A DNA stretch of 64,000 nt from the NCBI RefSeq assembly GCF_029855045.1, contig NZ_CP123228.1, positions 4,588,001-4,652,000 on the forward strand, given 5' to 3'. The notes below the pieces were generated by a model. That model was not told the DNA's origin, searched no databases, and saw only the letters and a list, made by a program, of their open reading frames with translations. Shown here piece after piece: positions 27,108-58,185 of the stretch (the stretch's first letter is position 1; each line of letters begins with the position of its first letter). Origin of the DNA: Piscinibacter sp. XHJ-5 (lineage in GTDB: Bacteria; Pseudomonadota; Gammaproteobacteria; Burkholderiales; Burkholderiaceae_C). A program made the translations under genes and the position numbers.

Positions 27108-27997
27108 CGCTGCGTGCGGACCTTGCCATCGCCGGGGCGCTGCTGCTGCTCGCCGCCGCGGTGTGGATGCCGCCGGTGACCTTGCAGCGCCCCGTGTTCA
27201 GCTACATGGTCACCTTCGACATCACGCAGAGCATGGACGTCGAGGATGTGGAGCATGCGGGCGCGCCGGTCAGCCGGCTGGCGCTCGCCCGCCTCGCGAT
27301 GCGCGACGCCCTGCGCCGGCTGCCGTGCGGCTCGCGGATCGGCTGGAGCATCTTCGCCGACTATCGCGCGCTGCCGCTGATGATGCCGGTGGAGGTCTGC
27401 GGCCACTACGAGGAGCTGCTGGCCTCGCTGGACGCCATCGACGGACGCATGCGCTGGGCCAACGCCAGCAACGTCGGCAAGGGCGTGACCTGGACGGTTC
27501 GCAGCGCCAAGCTCATCGGGTCCGGCGTCAGCGTGGTCTTCATCACCGACGGGCACGAGTCGCCGCCGCTGCGCGGCGATGCCGCGCCGCCCATGGCCGG
27601 CATCACGCCGGGCGACGTCGGCGGCTGGCTGATCGGCGTCGGCGGCGCGCTGCCGGCGCCCATTCCCAAGACCGATCGCGACGGCAACCGCGCCGGCTTC
27701 TGGCAGGCCGGTGATGTCGTGCAGCGCGACGACATGCCGAGCCATGAGCACCTGTCGGAGCTGCGAGAGGCTCACCTGCAATCGCTGGCGCGCGTCATGG
27801 GCTTGGGCTACCGGCGCCTCGTGGAGGCGGACGCGCTCGCGAAGGCGCTGCTCGATGCGCGGCTCGCGCGAAGCGCTCCGGTGCAGACCGACGTCTCGCA
27901 GGTGCCGGCGCTGCTGGCCCTGCTGCTGCTGGCGTGGCGATTCAGGCCGGGCCTCAGCCTGACCCGCTCCCGCCGGCGGGACAGGGAATCCCCTTAG
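27104..27997 (+). CDS. mxaL: VWA-domain membrane protein, MxaL type
   Basis: A 297-residue protein with an N-terminal membrane helix and a VWA domain. The MIDAS is Asp39-I-Thr41-Q-Ser43, with Thr at the usual first Ser position. The domain includes GWSIFADYRALPLM and VVFITDGHES. A second hydrophobic helix (VPALLALLLLAWRF) lies near the C-terminus. The layout and last position after mxaK match MxaL. The final 12 or so codons run into a palindromic CGCCGGCGGG repeat and give an Arg-rich tail (TRSRRRDRESP). The TAG stop lies at the left end of the miniature element. No mxaD follows. Confidence 0.68.
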   Translation: MTLRADLAIAGALLLLAAAVWMPPVTLQRPVFSYMVTFDITQSMDVEDVEHAGAPVSRLALARLAMRDALRRLPCGSRIGWSIFADYRALPLMMPVEVCGHYEELLASLDAIDGRMRWANASNVGKGVTWTVRSAKLIGSGVSVVFITDGHESPPLRGDAAPPMAGITPGDVGGWLIGVGGALPAPIPKTDRDGNRAGFWQAGDVVQRDDMPSHEHLSELREAHLQSLARVMGLGYRRLVEADALAKALLDARLARSAPVQTDVSQVPALLALLLLAWRFRPGLSLTRSRRRDRESP

Positions 27998-28168
27998 GGC
28001 CTGTTAACGCTATGGGAGGCCTCGCGTGACTCAGCAAAGCGGCGCCCGCAAGGCGCGAAGCGCAGCCGTAGCGGTGTCTACGGCGAGCATTCGCAACGCG
28101 GCGGGCGCCGCTTTGCTGAGATCACCCGCAGGGCCGGTGCCTGGCCTCCCATAGCGTTAACAGGCCCT
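27996..28168. mobile_element. 173-bp palindromic miniature element, copy 1 (complete)
   Basis: The element is bounded by perfect 25-bp inverted repeats, 27996-28020 and 28144-28168, which begin AGGGCCTGTTAACGCTATGG. Inside is a perfect 19-bp inverted pair, TCAGCAAAGCGGCGCCCGC at 28031-28049 and its complement at 28101-28119. An apical hairpin follows, GCCGTAG (28065-28071) and CTACGGC (28078-28084). The whole element can therefore fold as one long rod. A second copy about 98% identical over the interior lies at 56344. It has no coding capacity. This looks like a MITE or a repeat mobilised in trans. The left end overlaps the mxaL stop. Confidence 0.8.
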
Positions 28169-28188
28169 TAGTCGCGGAAGCAGCACAT

Positions 28189-50667: not shown

Positions 50668-51918
50668 ATGGCCATCAGCCCCTGCGCCGATCCCTGCTGC
50701 GAAATCACGGCCGCCAAGGCCGCGTCCGCGCCGTGCGCCCCTCGAGCCGTGAGCGAGCCACCCCGTTGGGCCGCGATCGGCTCGCTCTCGCTGGGCGTCT
50801 TCGCCCTCGTGACGGCGGAGTTCCTGCCCGCGAGCCTGCTGACGGCGATGGCTGCGGACCTCGGCGTCTCCGACGGCGCCGCCGGTCAGGCCGTCACCGC
50901 CACCGCGCTGGTCGGCGCCATGGCCGCCCCTTCGATTCCGCTGCTCACCCGGCGCCTGGATCGCAAGGCGGTGATGCTCGCGCTGACGACGCTGCTGGTG
51001 CTGTCCAACGCCATCGCCGCGACAGCGGGCAGCCTGGCGATGCTGCTCGTCGCGCGCGTGATGCTCGGCATTGCGCTGGGCGGCTTCTGGTCGATGGCCG
51101 CCGCCCTCTCGATGCGACTGGTTCCCGACAGCCTCTTCGCCCGCGCGATGTCGGTGATCCTGACCGGCGTGTCGATCGCCACCGTCTGCGCGGCGCCGAT
51201 CGGCGCATGGATGGGCGAGCTGTGGGGGTGGCGCAGCGCCTTCGTCGCCGCCGGCGCCATCAGCGCGCTGGCGTTCGCCGCGCAGCTCGCGACCCTGCCC
51301 GCGCTGCCGCCGCGCGACAGCCCCGACCTGCGCGTGCTGGGCGAGCTGCTGCGCCGCCCGAGCGTCCGTGTCGCGCTGGTCGCCGTGCTGCTCGTGATCT
51401 CGGGCCATTTCGCGGGCTTCACCTACATCCGTCCGCTGATGGAAGACGTGACCCGGCTGCCGGTCGGTGCGATTTCGGCCATCCTGCTCGGCTACGGCAT
51501 CGGCGGCTTCTTCGGCAACTTCGCGGGCGGCCTGCTGGCCGAGCGCAGCGAGCGTCGCGCCATCGTGCTCGGCGGCGCACTGATCGCCGCACTGGCGACG
51601 ACGCTGCTGATCGCCGGCAGCTCGGCTGCCGTCACCGCGGTCGCGGTCTCGCTGTGGGGCTTCGCGTTCGGCGCGTTCCCGGTGGGCTTCCAGACCTGGA
51701 TCGTGCGCGCCGCACCGGACCAGGCCGAAGGCGCCGGCGGCCTGCTCGTCGCCGCGTTCCAGATCGCGATCGCGAGCGGGGCCATCGGCGGCGGCGTGCT
51801 GGTCGACCACGTCGGCGCCCTGGGCGGCCCCTTGTTCGCGGTGGTCACCCTCACGTTCGGCACGCTGCTGACGCTGCGCCACGGCCCGCGGCCCAGCGCG
51901 ACCGGGAGCCGCCCATGA
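50668..51918 (+). CDS. MFS efflux transporter (DHA1 type)
   Basis: A 416-residue permease with about 12 transmembrane helices. The family motif between helices 2 and 3 is present (LLTRRLDRKAVML), and motif C-like GIALGGFWSMAA is seen. It resembles the sugar/drug efflux proteins (AraJ/YdeA-like) often divergent from AraC-cupin regulators. ATG 50668 is 80 bp from the proposed AraC start, leaving room for both promoters. It overlaps the following oxidoreductase gene by four bases. Confidence 0.87.
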   Translation: MAISPCADPCCEITAAKAASAPCAPRAVSEPPRWAAIGSLSLGVFALVTAEFLPASLLTAMAADLGVSDGAAGQAVTATALVGAMAAPSIPLLTRRLDRKAVMLALTTLLVLSNAIAATAGSLAMLLVARVMLGIALGGFWSMAAALSMRLVPDSLFARAMSVILTGVSIATVCAAPIGAWMGELWGWRSAFVAAGAISALAFAAQLATLPALPPRDSPDLRVLGELLRRPSVRVALVAVLLVISGHFAGFTYIRPLMEDVTRLPVGAISAILLGYGIGGFFGNFAGGLLAERSERRAIVLGGALIAALATTLLIAGSSAAVTAVAVSLWGFAFGAFPVGFQTWIVRAAPDQAEGAGGLLVAAFQIAIASGAIGGGVLVDHVGALGGPLFAVVTLTFGTLLTLRHGPRPSATGSRP

Positions 51919-52928
51919 CCGTCAATCGCCGCATCGTGCTTGCCGAACGCCCGCATGGCCTGCCCACCGTGGGGCATTTCCGCCTCGAGGAGGTCGCCGT
52001 CCCGCAACCCGCCGACGGGCAGGTGCTGCTGCGCACGCTGTACCTCTCGCTCGACCCGTACATGCGCCAGCTGATGGACGAGATTCCTCCGGCATACGCA
52101 CCGTCGGTCCCGCTCGGGGAACCGATGGCCGGCGGCACGGTGAGCCGTGTCGTGGCCAGCCGCCACCCGGGCTTTCGCGTCGGCGACGTCGTGCTCGCCC
52201 GTGCCGGCTGGCAGGAGTACGCGGTGTCCGACGGCGACGACTTGAGCCCCGTCCCCGAGACGGAGCGGCCGTCGCTGGCGCTCGGCGGACTCGGGATGAC
52301 GGCGTTCACCGCGTACGTCGGCCTGCTCGACATCGGCCAGCCGACACCCGGCGAGACCGTCGTCGTCGCCGCCGCGACCGGTGGGGTCGGCGCCATGGTG
52401 GGACAGATCGCCAGGCTCAAGGGCGCGCGGGTGGTCGGCATCGCCGGTGGCGCCGCGAAGTGCCGCTTCGCCGTCGAGGAGCTCGGCTTCGACATCTGCC
52501 TCGATCGCCACGACACCCGGCTCGCCGAACGCCTCGCCGCCGCATGCCCCCACGGCATCGACGTGTATGTCGAGAACGTCGGCGGACCGGTGTTCGACGC
52601 GGTGTTCCCGCTGCTGAACCTGGGTGCGCGCATCCCGGTGATCGGCACCATCGCGCACTACAACGACGCCGCGCCGCCCACAGGGCCCGACCGCCTGCCG
52701 CACGTGATGACGATGGTGCTGCAGAAGCGCCTGCGAATGCAGGGCCTCGTGATCCTCGACCACTACGAAGACCGCTTCGAGGCGTTCCGCAGCGACATGC
52801 AGGCGTGGATCGCCCAGGGTCGCGTCAAGCCGATCGAGCACGTCGTCGATGGACTGCAGAACGCGCCGAGCGCGTTCATCGGGCTGCTGGAGGGACGCAA
52901 CCTCGGCAAGGTGGTCGTGCGCTTCTAG
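51915..52928 (+). CDS. NADP-dependent medium-chain oxidoreductase (CurA-like)
   Basis: A 337-residue zinc-free MDR enzyme of the leukotriene B4 12-hydroxydehydrogenase / CurA group. The evidence is LSLDPYMRQLM at the N-terminus, the nucleotide motif AATGGVGAMVGQIARLKGARVVGIAGG, and YVENVGGPVFDAVFPLLN. These reduce double bonds of enones such as curcumin. It is coupled to the MFS gene (ATGA), suggesting joint handling of an unsaturated toxic compound. Its TAG stop is provided by the left end of the palindromic element at 52925. Confidence 0.87.
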   Translation: MTVNRRIVLAERPHGLPTVGHFRLEEVAVPQPADGQVLLRTLYLSLDPYMRQLMDEIPPAYAPSVPLGEPMAGGTVSRVVASRHPGFRVGDVVLARAGWQEYAVSDGDDLSPVPETERPSLALGGLGMTAFTAYVGLLDIGQPTPGETVVVAAATGGVGAMVGQIARLKGARVVGIAGGAAKCRFAVEELGFDICLDRHDTRLAERLAAACPHGIDVYVENVGGPVFDAVFPLLNLGARIPVIGTIAHYNDAAPPTGPDRLPHVMTMVLQKRLRMQGLVILDHYEDRFEAFRSDMQAWIAQGRVKPIEHVVDGLQNAPSAFIGLLEGRNLGKVVVRF

Positions 52929-53196
52929 TGTCGTGAGTTGGAAATACGTGGCGTTTCGATTCGACCAGATGGTGATGATCGGGCGGCTGCGCGAAGGGGC
53001 CAATACTGGACGTATTGGCCCCTTCGCGCAGGCGACCGAGGGCGCCATCTGGTCGAACCGAAGGCGGGCCCAAACGGGGCGATCGCCGCGTTGCAGAGTC
53101 GGGTCCATACCCCCGGTATGGACCCGACTCCGCGCCTTGCGCTCATCCCCGTTTGGGCCCGTCGAAACGCCACGTATTTCCAACTCACGACACTAG
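52925..53196. mobile_element. 272-bp multi-hairpin palindromic element with 35-bp terminal inverted repeats
   Basis: The ends are perfect 35-bp inverted repeats (52925-52959 and 53162-53196), beginning CTAGTGTCGTGAGTTGG. Inside are two arms. Arm 1 is a perfect 13-bp stem (TTCGACCAGATGG at 52960-52972 with 53045-53057) enclosing a 19-bp hairpin (52988-53006 with 53012-53030, loop TGGAC). Arm 2 is a 14-bp stem (GGGCCCAAACGGGG at 53066-53079 with 53147-53160) enclosing a 16-bp hairpin (53096-53111 with 53115-53130). The whole could form a three-way junction. It encodes nothing convincing. It lies between convergent genes and may be a non-autonomous element and terminator. Confidence 0.8.
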
Positions 53197-53201
53197 CCGT
53201 G

Positions 53202-53546
53202 TCACCTGCGAAGCGAGAGGATCAGCACGAGCGTCGCCAGGCACATGACCGCGTTGCATGCATTGACCGCCACCGCGCGTGTCAGGCGTCGCGAGTTCTG
53301 TTCGTACAGCCACGCGGCCATCGTCGCGTTGGCGCCGGTCCAGGTCAGCCAGGTGAGCCAGGAATGCTGCTGCGACTCGCCGCTGGCATGGATCGCCCAG
53401 ATCGTCGGCAGGTAGGCCAGCACGCGCACCGAGTTGAAGAACGCGAACGACCACGTCAGGACGTGGACGTAGAGGCTGGGCTGCGGCATCTGGGGCGGTG
53501 GGCGGGTCGCGTCTTGGCTGGCGACCAGGGCGTCGGGGTTCATCAT
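53202..53546 (-). CDS. small three-helix membrane protein, PQ-loop/SemiSWEET-like, second copy
   Basis: A 114-residue paralogue of the protein at 43644. The shared stretches are YLPTIWAIHAS, LTWTGANATMAAWLYEQ and the TM1 segment LTWSFAFFNSVRVLAYLPT. Three transmembrane helices are predicted, with a PQ-loop-like first turn. Two ATGs (53546 and 53543) follow AGGAG. Its stop lies 6 bp from the end of the palindromic element. The gene lies 110 bp after the regulator gene at 53656 on the same strand and may share its transcript. A transport role is inference only. Confidence 0.65.
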   Translation of the reverse strand: MMNPDALVASQDATRPPPQMPQPSLYVHVLTWSFAFFNSVRVLAYLPTIWAIHASGESQQHSWLTWLTWTGANATMAAWLYEQNSRRLTRAVAVNACNAVMCLATLVLILSLRR

Positions 53547-53655
53547 CTGTGCGGGCTCCTGGGAAGGTCTCCGGACCGGCCATCGATCCGGTGGCTCCAC
53601 TTTCGGTGCCCGCCGCCGCGGCGTCATGAAGCCGCGCTCAAACGTTCTCAAACCG

Positions 53656-56184
53656 TCACGGCGCGGCGTCGCGCTCGGCGAACCCGAGCGTGGGGATGTC
53701 CGAATCGCGCAGGGCGGCTCCTTCGGCGCTCAGGCGCTCGAACTCGGCCGCCGGCAGGGATTGGCGGGCCAGCTGCTCGGCGCGCTGCACCGTGATGCCT
53801 TCGGCGACCTGGCGCGTGTTCTGCGTGGCTGCATACCGGGCGTCGGCATAGCCTCGCAGCAGCGCGCTGGCGCGCGGCCGCTGCTCCATCGCCGCCAGCA
53901 GGGCCAGGCTGTCGGCCCACGAGGCCTGGCGCGCATAGGCCGCCGCCTCGGGCCAGCCGATGAGCGCCAGCGCGCGCGCCTGCGCCGGCTCGTCGTTGGC
54001 CAGCCAGGCTTCGACCAGGTTGACCCGCGCCATGTTCAGCCGCCCGCGGTGCCGCGTGCCCTCGAGCCGCCTCACGAGCTCCAGCCCGGTGCGCAAGGCC
54101 TCGGCCGCGTGCTCCAGCTCCAGCTCGATGTCGACGACGCACAGCAGGCCGTGCAGGGTGCTCGAGCCCGCCTCGCGCTCCAGCGCGATCAGGCGGTACG
54201 AAAACGCCAGGCCACGCTGTGGGTCGAGGAACCACGACGCGCACGCCTGCTCCGCACCGGCGCCGCAGAGCAGCCGGGCAGCGGGCCAGCTGGCCAGCTC
54301 CAGCGTGCGCATCTCCGCCAGTGCCCGCTCGGCCGCCGGCGCGTCTTCGGGCGCCGCCAAACGGGCCAGCCGCGCCAGCGCGCGATAGAGCATGAAGCGG
54401 TCCCCCGACGCACGAAACCGCTCCACCGCCTCCGAGGCATGCTGCCTCGCCTGCCGGTGCCGCACGCCGGCGAACCTGTCGGCCGCTTCCATCAGGACAT
54501 GTGCGTGCAGGTCCGAGGGAATGTCCCGGGCGAGCAGCGGCTCGGTGGCCTCCCAGAGGGCCTGGCGCTCGCTCTGCTGCGACTCGGGCAGCACGGCGAG
54601 GAGGCCGGCACACAGCGCGACGGCGCAGGCGGGATCGTGTTCGCGCGCCCACGCGAACGCCTCACGGGCGTTGTCGACGTCCGCCTGCGCGTCCTCCAAC
54701 CAGGCGTCCTGGCCGACCCGCCCGCTCCAGCGCTCCTCTCGTGCAAGGTCGAACCGCTCGCGCACCGCTGCGGCATGGCGTGCACGCACCGCGTCCCTCT
54801 CGCCGGAGGCGTCCAGGTGTTCGAGCGCGAGAGCTCGCGGCGAGTCGAGCAGTCGGTAACGCGGCGAGTCCTCCGCATCGGCGCTGACCGCCAGGAGCGA
54901 CCGATCGACCAGCCCGCCCATGGCGTCGAGCACGCCCCAGGCATCGAGGGACGCGTCGGTCGCCACCTGCTGGGCCATCTGGAGCGAGGCGCCGCCGACG
55001 AACACGGCGAGCCGCCGCAGCACGGCCTGCTCGTCCGGCGTGAGCAGGCCGTGGCTCCATTCGAGCGCGGCGCGCAAGGTCCTCTGGCGCGCCGGCGCGC
55101 CCGCCGCGCCGACGGTGAGCAGCCGCAGCCGCTGGTCCAGCGCGGCCGCCAGCGCCGGCAGTCCGAGCAGGGGCAGCCGCGTCGCGGCGAGCTCGATGGC
55201 GAGCGGCAAGCCGTCGAGTGCGCGGCACAGCGACACGACCGTGTGGACGTTCGCGTCGTCCAGCGTGAAGCGCCGATCGAGCGCTCGGGCCCGGTTGACG
55301 AAGAGCGCCACTGCGCCATGCGCCATCGCGCTGGCGGCATCGACCTGCCCCTCGGGCCATCCGAGCGAGCCCAGCCGGTAAAGGTGCTCGCCGCGCGCGC
55401 GCAACGGTGTCTGGCTGGTGACCAGCAGGCGCACGCGAGGCGCTGCCTCGCGCAAGGCCTCGACGACCGTCGCCACCGCGGCCGGCAGATGCTCTGCGTT
55501 GTCGAGCGCCAGGATCATGTCCAGCGACGCCACCGCGGCGGCCAGGGCGGCGAGCGTGTCGCCACCGGCCAGGCGCACACCCAGCGCGGTCGCGATCGTG
55601 GCCGGAAGCATGGTGGGCAACGCGTCCGCGGCCGACAGCGGCGCCAGCTCGACCCAGCACACGCCATGGGCACGCCGGACGCGCTGCTCCTGCAGCAGGG
55701 CGCGCACCAGTGACGACTTGCCGATGCCGCCGGCGCCCACGACCGTCACCAGACCGTGATGCTGGAGCAGTTCACGCAGTGCGCTCAGGTCGTCGTCGCG
55801 GCCGATGAGCTCGGCGGGCTCGTCGCCCAAGTTGCTGCGCAGGGCGGGCGGCCCTGTGACCGGCGCCGCCGTCGGGGCCGGCTCCAGCAGCGCGGCCGTG
55901 AAGCGATAGCCCCGCCCGGGAATCGTGGCGATGATCTCCCCGCCCAGCACCTTGCGCAGGTTGCTCACCTGGGTGGCGAGGTTGTTCTCCTCGACCACCA
56001 GCCCGGGCCAGACGAGGTCGAGCAAGTCGTGCTTGCTCACCAGCTGGCCGGCACGCCCGGCGAGCGCCAGCAGCACGTCGAAGGCACGCGCGCCGAGCGG
56101 CACGGGCTCTCCAGCCGCGAGCAGCCGCCGCTCCTGCGGCTGCAGCTCGAAGTGGGCGAAACGCATGCTGGAGGCCGGCTGCAT
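53656..56184 (-). CDS. winged-helix / NTPase / TPR regulatory protein
   Basis: An 842-residue regulator in the same style as the protein at 18174 but of a different ATPase branch. An N-terminal OmpR-type winged helix (FDVLLALAGRAGQLVSKHDLLDLVW, ATIPGRGYRFTA; about residues 8-97) is followed by an ATPase with Walker A GAGGIGKS (150-157), Walker B MILALDNAEHL and a sensor motif LLVTSQTPL. This is the NB-ARC/LuxR-like predicted ATPase pattern. The C-terminal 400 or so residues are helical and TPR-like. ATG 56184 is used; ATG 56166 is also in frame. The signal and targets are unknown. Confidence 0.82.
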   Translation of the reverse strand: MQPASSMRFAHFELQPQERRLLAAGEPVPLGARAFDVLLALAGRAGQLVSKHDLLDLVWPGLVVEENNLATQVSNLRKVLGGEIIATIPGRGYRFTAALLEPAPTAAPVTGPPALRSNLGDEPAELIGRDDDLSALRELLQHHGLVTVVGAGGIGKSSLVRALLQEQRVRRAHGVCWVELAPLSAADALPTMLPATIATALGVRLAGGDTLAALAAAVASLDMILALDNAEHLPAAVATVVEALREAAPRVRLLVTSQTPLRARGEHLYRLGSLGWPEGQVDAASAMAHGAVALFVNRARALDRRFTLDDANVHTVVSLCRALDGLPLAIELAATRLPLLGLPALAAALDQRLRLLTVGAAGAPARQRTLRAALEWSHGLLTPDEQAVLRRLAVFVGGASLQMAQQVATDASLDAWGVLDAMGGLVDRSLLAVSADAEDSPRYRLLDSPRALALEHLDASGERDAVRARHAAAVRERFDLAREERWSGRVGQDAWLEDAQADVDNAREAFAWAREHDPACAVALCAGLLAVLPESQQSERQALWEATEPLLARDIPSDLHAHVLMEAADRFAGVRHRQARQHASEAVERFRASGDRFMLYRALARLARLAAPEDAPAAERALAEMRTLELASWPAARLLCGAGAEQACASWFLDPQRGLAFSYRLIALEREAGSSTLHGLLCVVDIELELEHAAEALRTGLELVRRLEGTRHRGRLNMARVNLVEAWLANDEPAQARALALIGWPEAAAYARQASWADSLALLAAMEQRPRASALLRGYADARYAATQNTRQVAEGITVQRAEQLARQSLPAAEFERLSAEGAALRDSDIPTLGFAERDAAP

Positions 56185-56498
56185 CACAGACGGGACCCCG
56201 AATTCGAACCCTTGGCGATGACGAGAGCGTCCATGGTGTCTTTCCTGATCGGTCAAGGCGTGCCAGCCCCGATCTTGCACTCGATGCGCGGATTTGCGCG
56301 GACTCCCGGGACGCCGCCTCGCGCTCTTCGCGCGGCGCGGGCTAGGGCCTGTCAACGCCATGGGAGGCCTCGCGTGATTCAGCAAAGCGGCGCCCGCAAG
56401 GCGCGAAGCGCAGCCGTAGCGGTGTCTACGGCGAGCATTCGCAACGCGGCGGGCACCGCTTTGCTGAGATCACCCGCAGGGCCGGTGCCTGGCAGGCT
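56185..56498. other. 314-bp intergenic region between regulator and Bug gene
   Basis: From 56185 to 56343 there is GC-rich sequence upstream of the minus-strand regulator gene, presumably holding its promoter. No clear -10/-35 pair was found. From 56344 the truncated copy of the miniature element fills the rest up to the end of the Bug-type receptor gene. Confidence 0.6.
56344..56493. mobile_element. palindromic miniature element, copy 2 (right end missing)
   Basis: The left terminus AGGGCCTGTCAACGCCATGG (56344 on) differs from copy 1 at two positions of 25. The interior up to 56493 differs from copy 1 at only two of about 123 positions (one in the first inverted arm region and GCGCC versus GCACC in the second). 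After GTGCCTGGC the two copies diverge: copy 1 continues into the 25-bp right repeat, and copy 2 continues into the coding end of the Bug-type gene. This copy has therefore lost its right repeat and is probably immobile. Confidence 0.78.
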
Positions 56499-57422
56499 CT
56501 AGCGGTCCAGGCGCAGCCCGCTGCGTCGGGCCGAGGCGACGAAGCGACCGTACTGCCGGCGAAAGAAGTCGTCGAAATCCTCCGGCGGCAGCGCATGGGG
56601 CTCGAACCGCTGCGTTGCAAGACTTCGCCGCAGCACGGGGTCGTGCAGGCTCGTCGACACCGCCTGCGCGATCGCGGCGCGGCTGGTCAGCGACAGTCCC
56701 GCCGGGCCGAAAAGACCGAGCCAGGGCGTCACGTCGACGTCGAGCCCGCCGCCCGCCGCGGTGGTGCCGAGCCGGCGAAGGCGCCCGTCGGCGACGTAGG
56801 GGTCCGCGGCAGCGCCGGTGGCGAACATGAGCTGCACGCGCCCGGCGACCAGGTCGAGCAGCGCCGGTGCGTCGCCGCGGTAGGGCACGCCGAGCACGCG
56901 CCGCCGGCCGACGAGCTGGGCCATCGCGAGCTCGGCGGTGCTGTTGCTCGAGGCGGCCGCGAGCTGGCCAGGCCGGCGTTCGATCAGCTGCAGGAGCTCC
57001 GCGACGCTGCGCACGGGCAATGCCGCATGCACCAGCAGCTGCATCGAGAACCATCCCAGTCCGCTGACGGGGGAAAACGCGGTGAACGGGTCGTAGGGCG
57101 CGGACTCGCGCAGTGCCGGCACGGCGACCAGCGCGGTGTTCGATCCGAGCAGCAGCGTCGCAGCGTCGGGCGCCGCGGAAGCGACCGCCTGTGCCGCGAC
57201 GACGCCGTCGGCACCGGGCCGCTGCTCGACGAACACCGGGCGGCCCAGCGGCTCCTGCATCGCCGTGGCGAAGGAGCGCGCGACCGCGTCGGACGCACCG
57301 CCGGGCGCGAAGCCCACCACGATGCGCAGCGGCGCCGCCGCCGCGCGAGCGGGCGCCGCGATCATCGCGATCACGGCTGCCATCCAGGCACGGCGATGGG
57401 GGCGCAGCGGCAAGGGGATCAC
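56499..57422 (-). CDS. Bug/TctC-type extracytoplasmic receptor
   Basis: A 307-residue periplasmic receptor of the tripartite tricarboxylate family. The signal peptide is Ala-rich with PHRR in its N-region and probable cleavage near ARAAAA. The mature protein starts with the conserved IVVGFAPGGASDAVARSFA, with VEQRPGADG and YRGDAPALLDLVAGRVQLMFA further on. No TctA/TctB transporter genes are nearby, as is usual for the many orphan Bug proteins of Burkholderiales. GTG 57422 gives a full signal peptide; ATG 57383 is an alternative. Its TAG stop lies at the broken right end of the miniature element. Confidence 0.82.
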   Translation of the reverse strand: MIPLPLRPHRRAWMAAVIAMIAAPARAAAAPLRIVVGFAPGGASDAVARSFATAMQEPLGRPVFVEQRPGADGVVAAQAVASAAPDAATLLLGSNTALVAVPALRESAPYDPFTAFSPVSGLGWFSMQLLVHAALPVRSVAELLQLIERRPGQLAAASSNSTAELAMAQLVGRRRVLGVPYRGDAPALLDLVAGRVQLMFATGAAADPYVADGRLRRLGTTAAGGGLDVDVTPWLGLFGPAGLSLTSRAAIAQAVSTSLHDPVLRRSLATQRFEPHALPPEDFDDFFRRQYGRFVASARRSGLRLDR

Positions 57423-57501
57423 CTTCGACCGGCATTGTCGACCACGCTTCGTCCAGTGGCCATCCCGGTCGGCTTGCCCTTCCTGCCGCCGGGCAGGGCT
57501 G

Positions 57502-58185
57502 TCAGCTTCGCTTCGCGCTGCGCGCCGGGGAACGCGCGACGCAGGCTTCGACCCCGGCGGCGATGGTCTCGACAGCGCACGCCCGCAGCGCGTCAAAGTC
57601 GCTCCACGGGTAGCGGGTGTTGACGATGCGCGCATGCAGGTAGCCCACCATCAGCGACATGCGCAGGTCGCGCGCGACCAGCGCACGGTCTTTCCGGCCG
57701 CCGATCTCCGCGACGAGCTCGTCGATCAGCGGTCCGGCCAGGTCGACGGCGCTGACGTAAGCCTCGCTGCCCGTCAACGGCGCGCCCTGCGCCCGGTCCT
57801 CCATGGTCTCGGGGGTCATGTAGACGAGCCGGAAGTGCGCCGGATGCGATTCCCAGTACCGCAGGAAGGACTCGATGCTCGCCCGCAGGCGAGCACGCGC
57901 CGTCTTCTGCGTCGCGACCGCGGCCTTCACGCTGGCCTGCGCGTCGCTCAGCACCACTTCCCACATCGCGCGCAGCAGGTCCGCCTTGCTCGGGTAGTAG
58001 CGGTACAGCGCCATGGGCGAGACGCCCATCTCGGCGGCCAGCGCGCGCATCGACAGTGCCGAAACGCCTTCGCGCTCGTGGATCGCGAAGGCAGCCGCGA
58101 CGATCTGCTGGCGCAGCTGGTCGTGGTCTTCGGCAGATCCGCGGCGGACGCGCCGGTGCGTCGGGACAGACGTTTCACTTGCCAT
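57502..58185 (-). CDS. TetR-family transcriptional regulator
   Basis: A 227-residue repressor. The N-terminal helix-turn-helix reads IVAAAFAIHEREGVSALSMRALAAEMGVSPMALYRYYPSKADLLRAMW. The C-terminal ligand domain is helical and divergent, so the effector is unknown. It is divergent from the chemoreceptor/kinase pair across a 150-bp gap with a clear palindrome, and upstream of the Bug-type gene on the same strand (79 bp). It probably represses itself and perhaps the divergent genes. Confidence 0.87.
   Translation of the reverse strand: MASETSVPTHRRVRRGSAEDHDQLRQQIVAAAFAIHEREGVSALSMRALAAEMGVSPMALYRYYPSKADLLRAMWEVVLSDAQASVKAAVATQKTARARLRASIESFLRYWESHPAHFRLVYMTPETMEDRAQGAPLTGSEAYVSAVDLAGPLIDELVAEIGGRKDRALVARDLRMSLMVGYLHARIVNTRYPWSDFDALRACAVETIAAGVEACVARSPARSAKRS

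Follow-up and report, generated by a model that had tools for sequence, protein, structure and literature searches.

What is the short, strongly folding element at the end of an oxidoreductase gene of Piscinibacter sp. XHJ-5, and does this gene owe its stop codon to it? The locus lies in a stretch of 64,000 nucleotides of contig NZ_CP123228.1, here called the window, which was analysed as a whole. A sequence-only reading had described a two-armed palindromic element of recent spread or selected structure, placed between convergent genes, and had proposed that it supplies the TAG of the oxidoreductase. The element is very probably a non-autonomous transposon (MITE) with IS630-type ends that encloses an inverted pair of arms of about 100 nt, members of a structured family. 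The features of the locus are the following.

51915..52928, + strand: oxidoreductase gene, zinc-type dehydrogenase, 337 aa (ADH_N_2, ADH_zinc_N), with its stop inside the CTAG of the element
52925..53196, no strand: whole element, 272 bp, bounded CTAG to CTAG, with seven full copies in the genome
52925..52928, + strand: CTAG, the likely target, with the oxidoreductase stop codon TAG at 52926-52928
52925..52959, + strand: left 35-bp terminal inverted repeat, CTAG followed by GTGTCGTGAG, with 18 of 21 positions as in an IS630-family end
53162..53196, - strand: right 35-bp terminal inverted repeat, perfectly complementary to the left one, CTAG last
52955..53062, - strand: arm A (model R1), in the orientation opposite to arm B; apical hairpin 52979-53039
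52955-52972/53045-53062: outer stem of arm A, 94% complementary
52979-53006/53012-53039: apical hairpin of arm A, 93% complementary
53063..53163, + strand: arm B (model R2); apical hairpin 53093-53133
53065-53079/53147-53161: outer stem of arm B, 100% complementary
53093-53111/53115-53133: apical hairpin of arm B, 95% complementary
53089..53094, + strand: CGTTGC, 5' side of an asymmetric internal loop that is conserved in arm B; all 33 aligned arms have CGTT unchanged
53132..53140, + strand: GCGCCTTGC, 3' side of the same loop; its CCT likewise unchanged in all 33

The anatomy first proposed, with its exact coordinates, perfect 35-bp repeats, two arms and two apical hairpins, is present as drawn, and the stems, said to be perfect or nearly so, reach 93-100% complementarity. 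The RNA fold energy of 52915-53206 is -230 kcal/mol (z -19.9) against a mean of -116.6 (sd 5.7) for shuffled controls, none of which was as low (0 of 200). The closing stem is formed by the pairing 35-bp transposon ends. Since the arms are oppositely oriented and the arm B model scores arm A at 61.5 bits, the element consists of two related hairpins in inverted orientation, enclosed by the closing stem. Inspection of the open reading frames of the 272 bp revealed no transposase frame, in agreement with the first description. The convergent placement of the flanking genes holds only if the minus-strand frame of 149 aa at 53202-53651, which has no Pfam match, is real.

The genome of 6.65 Mb (one contig) contains seven full copies of 270-275 bp with 98-100% identity, as expected from the recent spread that had been suggested. 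The element is not unique, as these copies and relatives in other genomes attest. Six further copies are deletion derivatives of 226, 179, 179, 151, 99 and 60 bp that retain both outer ends, in whole or in part, but lack arm sequence. The element has the general properties of a MITE, being short, without coding capacity, bounded by terminal inverted repeats and dispersed in several copies. Copies with target-site duplications and empty sites had both been suggested as checks: CTAG stands at both ends of 11 of the 13 copies, the exceptions having one end a single base off (CGAG in L006, CTGG in L037), but no empty orthologous site was found in 29 relatives for the seven of 13 sites that were fully tested.

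The position of the CTAG bears directly on the stop codon. The left repeat does hold the TAG of the oxidoreductase, at 52926-52928. At nine of the 13 sites in the genome, the TAG of a flanking CTAG is the stop of an open frame that matches Pfam. These frames code for the oxidoreductase (L001), a phosphopantetheine protein (L002; 21.0 bits, cut-off 20.8), an acyl-CoA dehydrogenase (L004), a protein kinase (L005), a hydrolase (L006), an FAD enzyme and an MFS protein on opposite strands (L007), a kinase regulator (L009), a protein of TetR type (L011; 22.9 bits, below the cut-off of 24) and a response regulator (L015); at L003, L008, L010 and L037 no Pfam-matched frame ends at the TAG of the flanking CTAG. 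An insertion into CTAG restores the TAG and is therefore harmless, so that the element need not have supplied the stop. With gene-ending TAGs at nine sites, the idea of a supplied stop codon is not supported in the form first proposed: judging from these flanks, the oxidoreductase stop most likely predates the insertion and was restored by the CTAG target. CTAG targeting thus probably explains a confusing annotation, in which the apparently supplied stop codon is a by-product. An enrichment at stop codons, scored with one automatic caller (seven of 13 sites against one of eight other CTAGs of the window and one of two flank CTAGs), was set aside as based on too few sites. CTAG is rare in the 64-kb window, with eight occurrences outside the element, of which two are the termini of the relative at 56342-56502.

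The ends relate the element to a family of transposases. A place with at most three mismatches to the 21-base end is found in 30 of 399 genomes of the taxonomic family, the own genome included. One of these genomes, G324, has three pairs of such ends about 1.16 kb apart, and the copy that was read is an intact insertion sequence of 1.16 kb with CTAGTGTCGTGAGTTAGAAGTTCG at both ends. Its transposase, of 360 aa, belongs to the IS630 family (NCBIfam NF033545, E 9.9e-77; also DDE_3). The ends of this insertion sequence are identical to the end of the element at 18 of 21 positions on each side; a control over 1400 plus-strand positions of its left flank gave 11 of 21 at best.

A full-length element with the same ends and a transposase had been suggested as a partner, and the insertion sequence of G324 comes close to it in its ends but belongs to another genus, and no autonomous element was found in the own genome. 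There, a 26-base end pattern with at most three mismatches matched 12 forward and 12 reverse places, all of them MITE ends; two short fragments are what is present of the G324-type transposase, and four weak matches to IS630 models lie below the cut-off. Two of these four matches lie in elements of about 1.05 kb, L097 (genome 4878057) and L098 (genome 3912340), which have CTAG at their ends and TGTGAAGCTTCAATAGG-like repeats. They were rejected as partners for having other ends (CTAG, then TGTGAAG-like imperfect repeats), of a type that we take to be that of IS481. The IS630-type mover of the element would accordingly be absent now or too diverged to be seen. An autonomous partner within one genome would help to identify an IS630-derived MITE but does not strictly define it. 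A preference of IS630 for the TA in CTAG is stated in the title of Tenzen and Ohtsubo (1991), as cited in PMC2170065.

Ends like those of an autonomous IS630 element and a CTAG/TA target are the properties of an IS630-derived MITE, and on these comparisons there is good support for classifying the element as a MITE whose ends are of IS630 type. Most likely, a transposase of the IS630 family inserted the element in trans into CTAG, which would have duplicated the TA; such mobilisation in trans is the ordinary inference, also made for RUP. Insertions into the CTAG of a TAG stop would be tolerated because the stop is restored, and the stop codons would be older than the insertions.

The relatives found through the ends show what accompanies them. 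The exact 23-base end is present in three MAGs, of a Rubrivivax sp., a Nevskiales bacterium and a Burkholderiaceae bacterium. The first and the last have the two-armed layout with other stems; the Nevskiales relative has one arm within the stretch examined. Genomes of the same order gave two short matches (L031 and L032, of 22 and 34 bases). Among the relatives found by the ends, 12 of 40 pairs of arm A (four rows) and 12 of 41 pairs of arm B (four rows, two of them own copies) are changed on both sides. These paired changes between species in both arms agree with the suggestion that the structure is kept. In addition, 29 loci of other genomes were found by the end alone (L063-L091), and seven of them have an inverted end pair less than 200 bp apart (L063, L077, L082, L084-L087). 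The arm, which had played no part in finding them, is present at 26-32 bits in five of these seven, the exceptions being L084 and L085, and in none of the other 22 loci. The arm therefore goes with the short elements of this end type.

The arm family is common in the taxonomic family of the window, which its named relatives place in Burkholderiales, and thin elsewhere in the class and the phylum. The arm B model matches 120 of the 399 family genomes at E <= 0.01 (101 of them at E <= 0.001), in 64 of 141 genera. An even sample of the class yielded matches in 11 of 369 genomes at E <= 0.001, two of them of the own family, and the phylum in seven of 398, three of them of the own family. The class-level loci L164-L173 are hairpins of distant genomes; their loop motif is identical or slightly altered, and several lack clear transposon ends within the stretch examined. 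Among 29 loci fetched by the arm (L102-L130), the inverted ends are 268-276 bp apart in 21 and 165-241 bp apart in five; none were found for L107, L112 and L126. A second arm in the opposite direction (either arm model, E <= 0.05) occurs in 14 of the 21 (L102, L106, L109-L111, L114, L116, L120-L122, L124, L125, L128 and L130), a weak second arm in the same direction in L123, and a second hairpin, visible only in the fold of the flanks, in the other six. Against plasmid records, L125 has one match on a Comamonas plasmid (98% of the element, 71% identity), L115 two short apical matches and L096 none. A relative of two-armed length, unannotated and between two genes, lies at 53951-54215 of the C. 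odontotermitis plasmid NZ_CP083452.1 (L163:2501-2765), a 373-kb plasmid typed as non-mobilizable.

Pairing is maintained in the family while the sequence changes. Over 31 arms, 92.8% of 1243 cells are paired (shuffled 62%, maximum 65%) and 347 cells are doubly changed; the 31 remain from 37 motif-bearing rows, among 78 aligned to the model, after removal of six (near-duplicates, one second arm and L082). All 78 rows give a covariation score of 0.715, against 0.184 for shuffled and about 0.1 for slid alignments, in an alignment that was fitted to the structure and includes both strands of many hairpins. The loop motif CGTT...CCT is invariant over 33 aligned arms, a conservation inflated by collecting the family with a model that contains the motif, and the E-values of the models are rough. 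Strand asymmetry was considered as proof of an RNA and rejected as too weak and aligner-helped (45 G.U against 27 A.C cells over the 31 arms). Structure rather than sequence would be what is kept: the arm family appears to retain its fold, its size (about 270 bp with two arms, about 165-190 bp with one) and its asymmetric internal loop, also between ends of IS5 type.

Two relatives with such IS5-type ends are found in the window itself, where the arm model also matches at 28028-28123 and 56374-56473.

27994-28171: one-armed relative, 178 bp with TTAG flanks; 26-bp perfect IS5-type ends AGGGCCTGTTAACGC... and a hairpin with the CGTTGC/GCGCCTTGC motif
56342-56502: one-armed relative with IS5-type ends, one end partly deleted

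The CTAG at 56499-56502 of the second relative holds the TAG stop of a minus-strand frame of 378 aa (56499-57635). In other genomes, the end type TAGGGYCTGTTCACRCT was searched with at most two mismatches in 13 genomes chosen for their arm matches. An inverted pair of this type, 268-271 bp apart, is present in 14 of 30 fetched loci, which represent 10 distinct places (L136 and L148 coincide with L115 and L129), and was not found in the other 16. The arm is present at each of the 10 places, with 26.8-59.9 bits. The genome G304 has two end pairs about 830 bp apart, and the one that was read (L161) encodes, in two overlapping frames, a transposase of the IS5 family; the second matches NF033580 at 135.9 bits, the first at 105.4 bits, below the cut-off of 110. 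The ends of L161 agree with the end of the two-armed L146 at 16 of 19 and 15 of 19 positions. Each MITE was assigned to a transposase by the similarity of its ends alone.

The own genome holds further copies of the IS5-ended kind. One of them (L209, genome 1346535-1346806) is two-armed and exactly 272 bp from CTAG to CTAG, has IS5-type ends and folds at -207.5 kcal/mol, and its arms match the arm B model in opposite directions at 37.7 and 32.4 bits. Its local alignment with the element scores 25, near the maximum of 26 for shuffled sequences (mean 16, n=100), and thus the two share length, layout, loop motif and CTAG, but not their ends, nor sequence clearly above chance. At genome 2257095-2257306 (L010/L223), a copy with IS630-type ends directly adjoins the right end of an element with IS5-type ends at a shared CTAG, forming a composite. 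Such a junction illustrates how elements of the two kinds could come to lie side by side through a common target.

The two-armed unit may, tentatively, itself be what is inherited, a module of structured RNA or single-stranded DNA whose size and loop motif are fixed and which has moved between the ends of the unrelated DDE transposons IS630 and IS5. A mobile module of this sort is compatible with the observations. What persists under this proposal, which is itself speculative, would be the architecture, the total length (272 bp in both types of the own genome) and the CGTTGC/GCGCCTTGC loop. If true, the unit would be a structure-defined genetic parasite, with its arms selected for a role in mobility or in the RNA of the host gene.

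It is also possible, though doubtful, that the elements are passive palindromes, self-corrected by template switching during replication, with a shape that is a frozen accident of a common ancestor. The near-perfect stems and the frequent arm deletions (six of the 13 own copies) would be expected of them, correction could yield paired changes without selection, and one position of arm B, where G is opposite G in the own copies L005 and L006, is paired in L001-L004, as correction would do. However, the CGTTGC/GCGCCT loop stays asymmetric and nearly unchanged as the stems turn over, although correction should erase such an asymmetry. Moreover, the two bases that precede CGTT and follow GCCT, respectively, are G/T in 23, T/A in nine and G/G in one of the 33 arms, and G.T is not a product of correction; the selection bias of the arm set weakens both of these arguments.

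A single, drifting family of ends, served by one kind of transposase, would make any crossing between transposons unnecessary. The ends GGGCCTGTT and GTGTCGTGAG would then be variants of each other, and intermediate-looking ends do exist (GTGTCCTGTCCC, GCAGCCTGTCGG and GGAGCCTGGG), many of them at CTAG-like sites. The insertion sequences of the two end types, however, code for transposases of IS630 and of IS5 (NF033580), which makes this explanation improbable.

Recruitment at gene ends, as a bidirectional terminator or as a hairpin that stabilises mRNA or is cleaved by RNase III, has precedents of the NEMIS type in the part of PMC2229807 consulted. The own copies lend it some support, with five of 13 in convergent, five in tandem and one in divergent context and two inside genes, according to a simple caller that missed the oxidoreductase beside L001. 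Other-genome loci are without such a bias (nine tandem, eight inside, three convergent, three divergent and three unclear, n=26, by a caller trained on the window only), and a bias of gene context was rejected for this disagreement. The CTAG target alone accounts for the gene ends. An ordinary rho-independent terminator, named at the outset as a refuting explanation, is not seen: the count of hairpins followed by a T tract is zero on both strands of 52700-53700. A role of this kind is unlikely. Searches with Rfam 15 gave six weak matches in 52800-53400 of the window, none at the gathering score, and none at that score in 6 + 20 more related loci. A phage or plasmid origin was rejected, as the element had no match in 50,697 phage or 72,556 plasmid records, from which records of the own genome may be excluded, and its exact 23-base end none in viral contigs.

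For the MITE with IS630-type ends and two structured arms, the interior is of general interest. Bacterial MITEs are usually viewed as leftovers of insertion sequences conserved at their ends alone, whereas here it is the interior that is conserved. Across many genera the size, the two inverted arms and the loop motif remain, and what changes are the stems and even the type of ends. Selection on MITE interiors, for mobility or for RNA function, thereby becomes testable.

No description of the two-armed layout was found in the literature covered; most subscription journals lie outside this coverage, and absence from print is unproven. The following comparisons refer to the parts of the cited papers that were available. 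RUP of Streptococcus pneumoniae, a MITE of IS630-Spn1, is likewise small, multi-copy and geneless, with IS630-like ends and TA termini, and its mobilisation in trans has also been proposed (PMC2229807, PMC3049150). RUP has 107 bp and a contiguous end pairing of 9 bp, in contrast to the 272 bp and perfect 35-bp ends found here; the present element is further set apart by its two inverted arms, its conserved loop motif and its IS5-ended relatives. MITEPsy1 of Pseudomonas syringae resembles the IS5-ended relatives, being listed as an 'IS5?' MITE that inserts after CTAG or YTAA, but it has 100 bp and no two-armed fold in its description (PMC3189936). The Correia/NEMIS elements of Neisseria are MITEs with a 24-bp end pairing, TA termini and folding transcripts (PMC2229807); unlike the present element, they have 107 or 155 bp and are armless. 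The REP/BIME/REPIN sequences are also inverted pairs of palindromes, but they consist of units of 20-40 bp with a GTAG or CGTC tag and are tied to RAYT genes (PMC3733652). The element does not have the anatomy of such a tagged palindrome; its arms of about 100 nt lie inside 35-bp transposon ends. According to the review PMC2229807, as far as consulted, bacterial repeats other than CIR are without arms. The CIR repeats of Caulobacter and Brucella do form two arms from two long inverted repeats (PMC2229807), but their arms stand on a linker with a GANTC motif and without end-to-end pairing, whereas the 35-bp ends of the element pair with each other.
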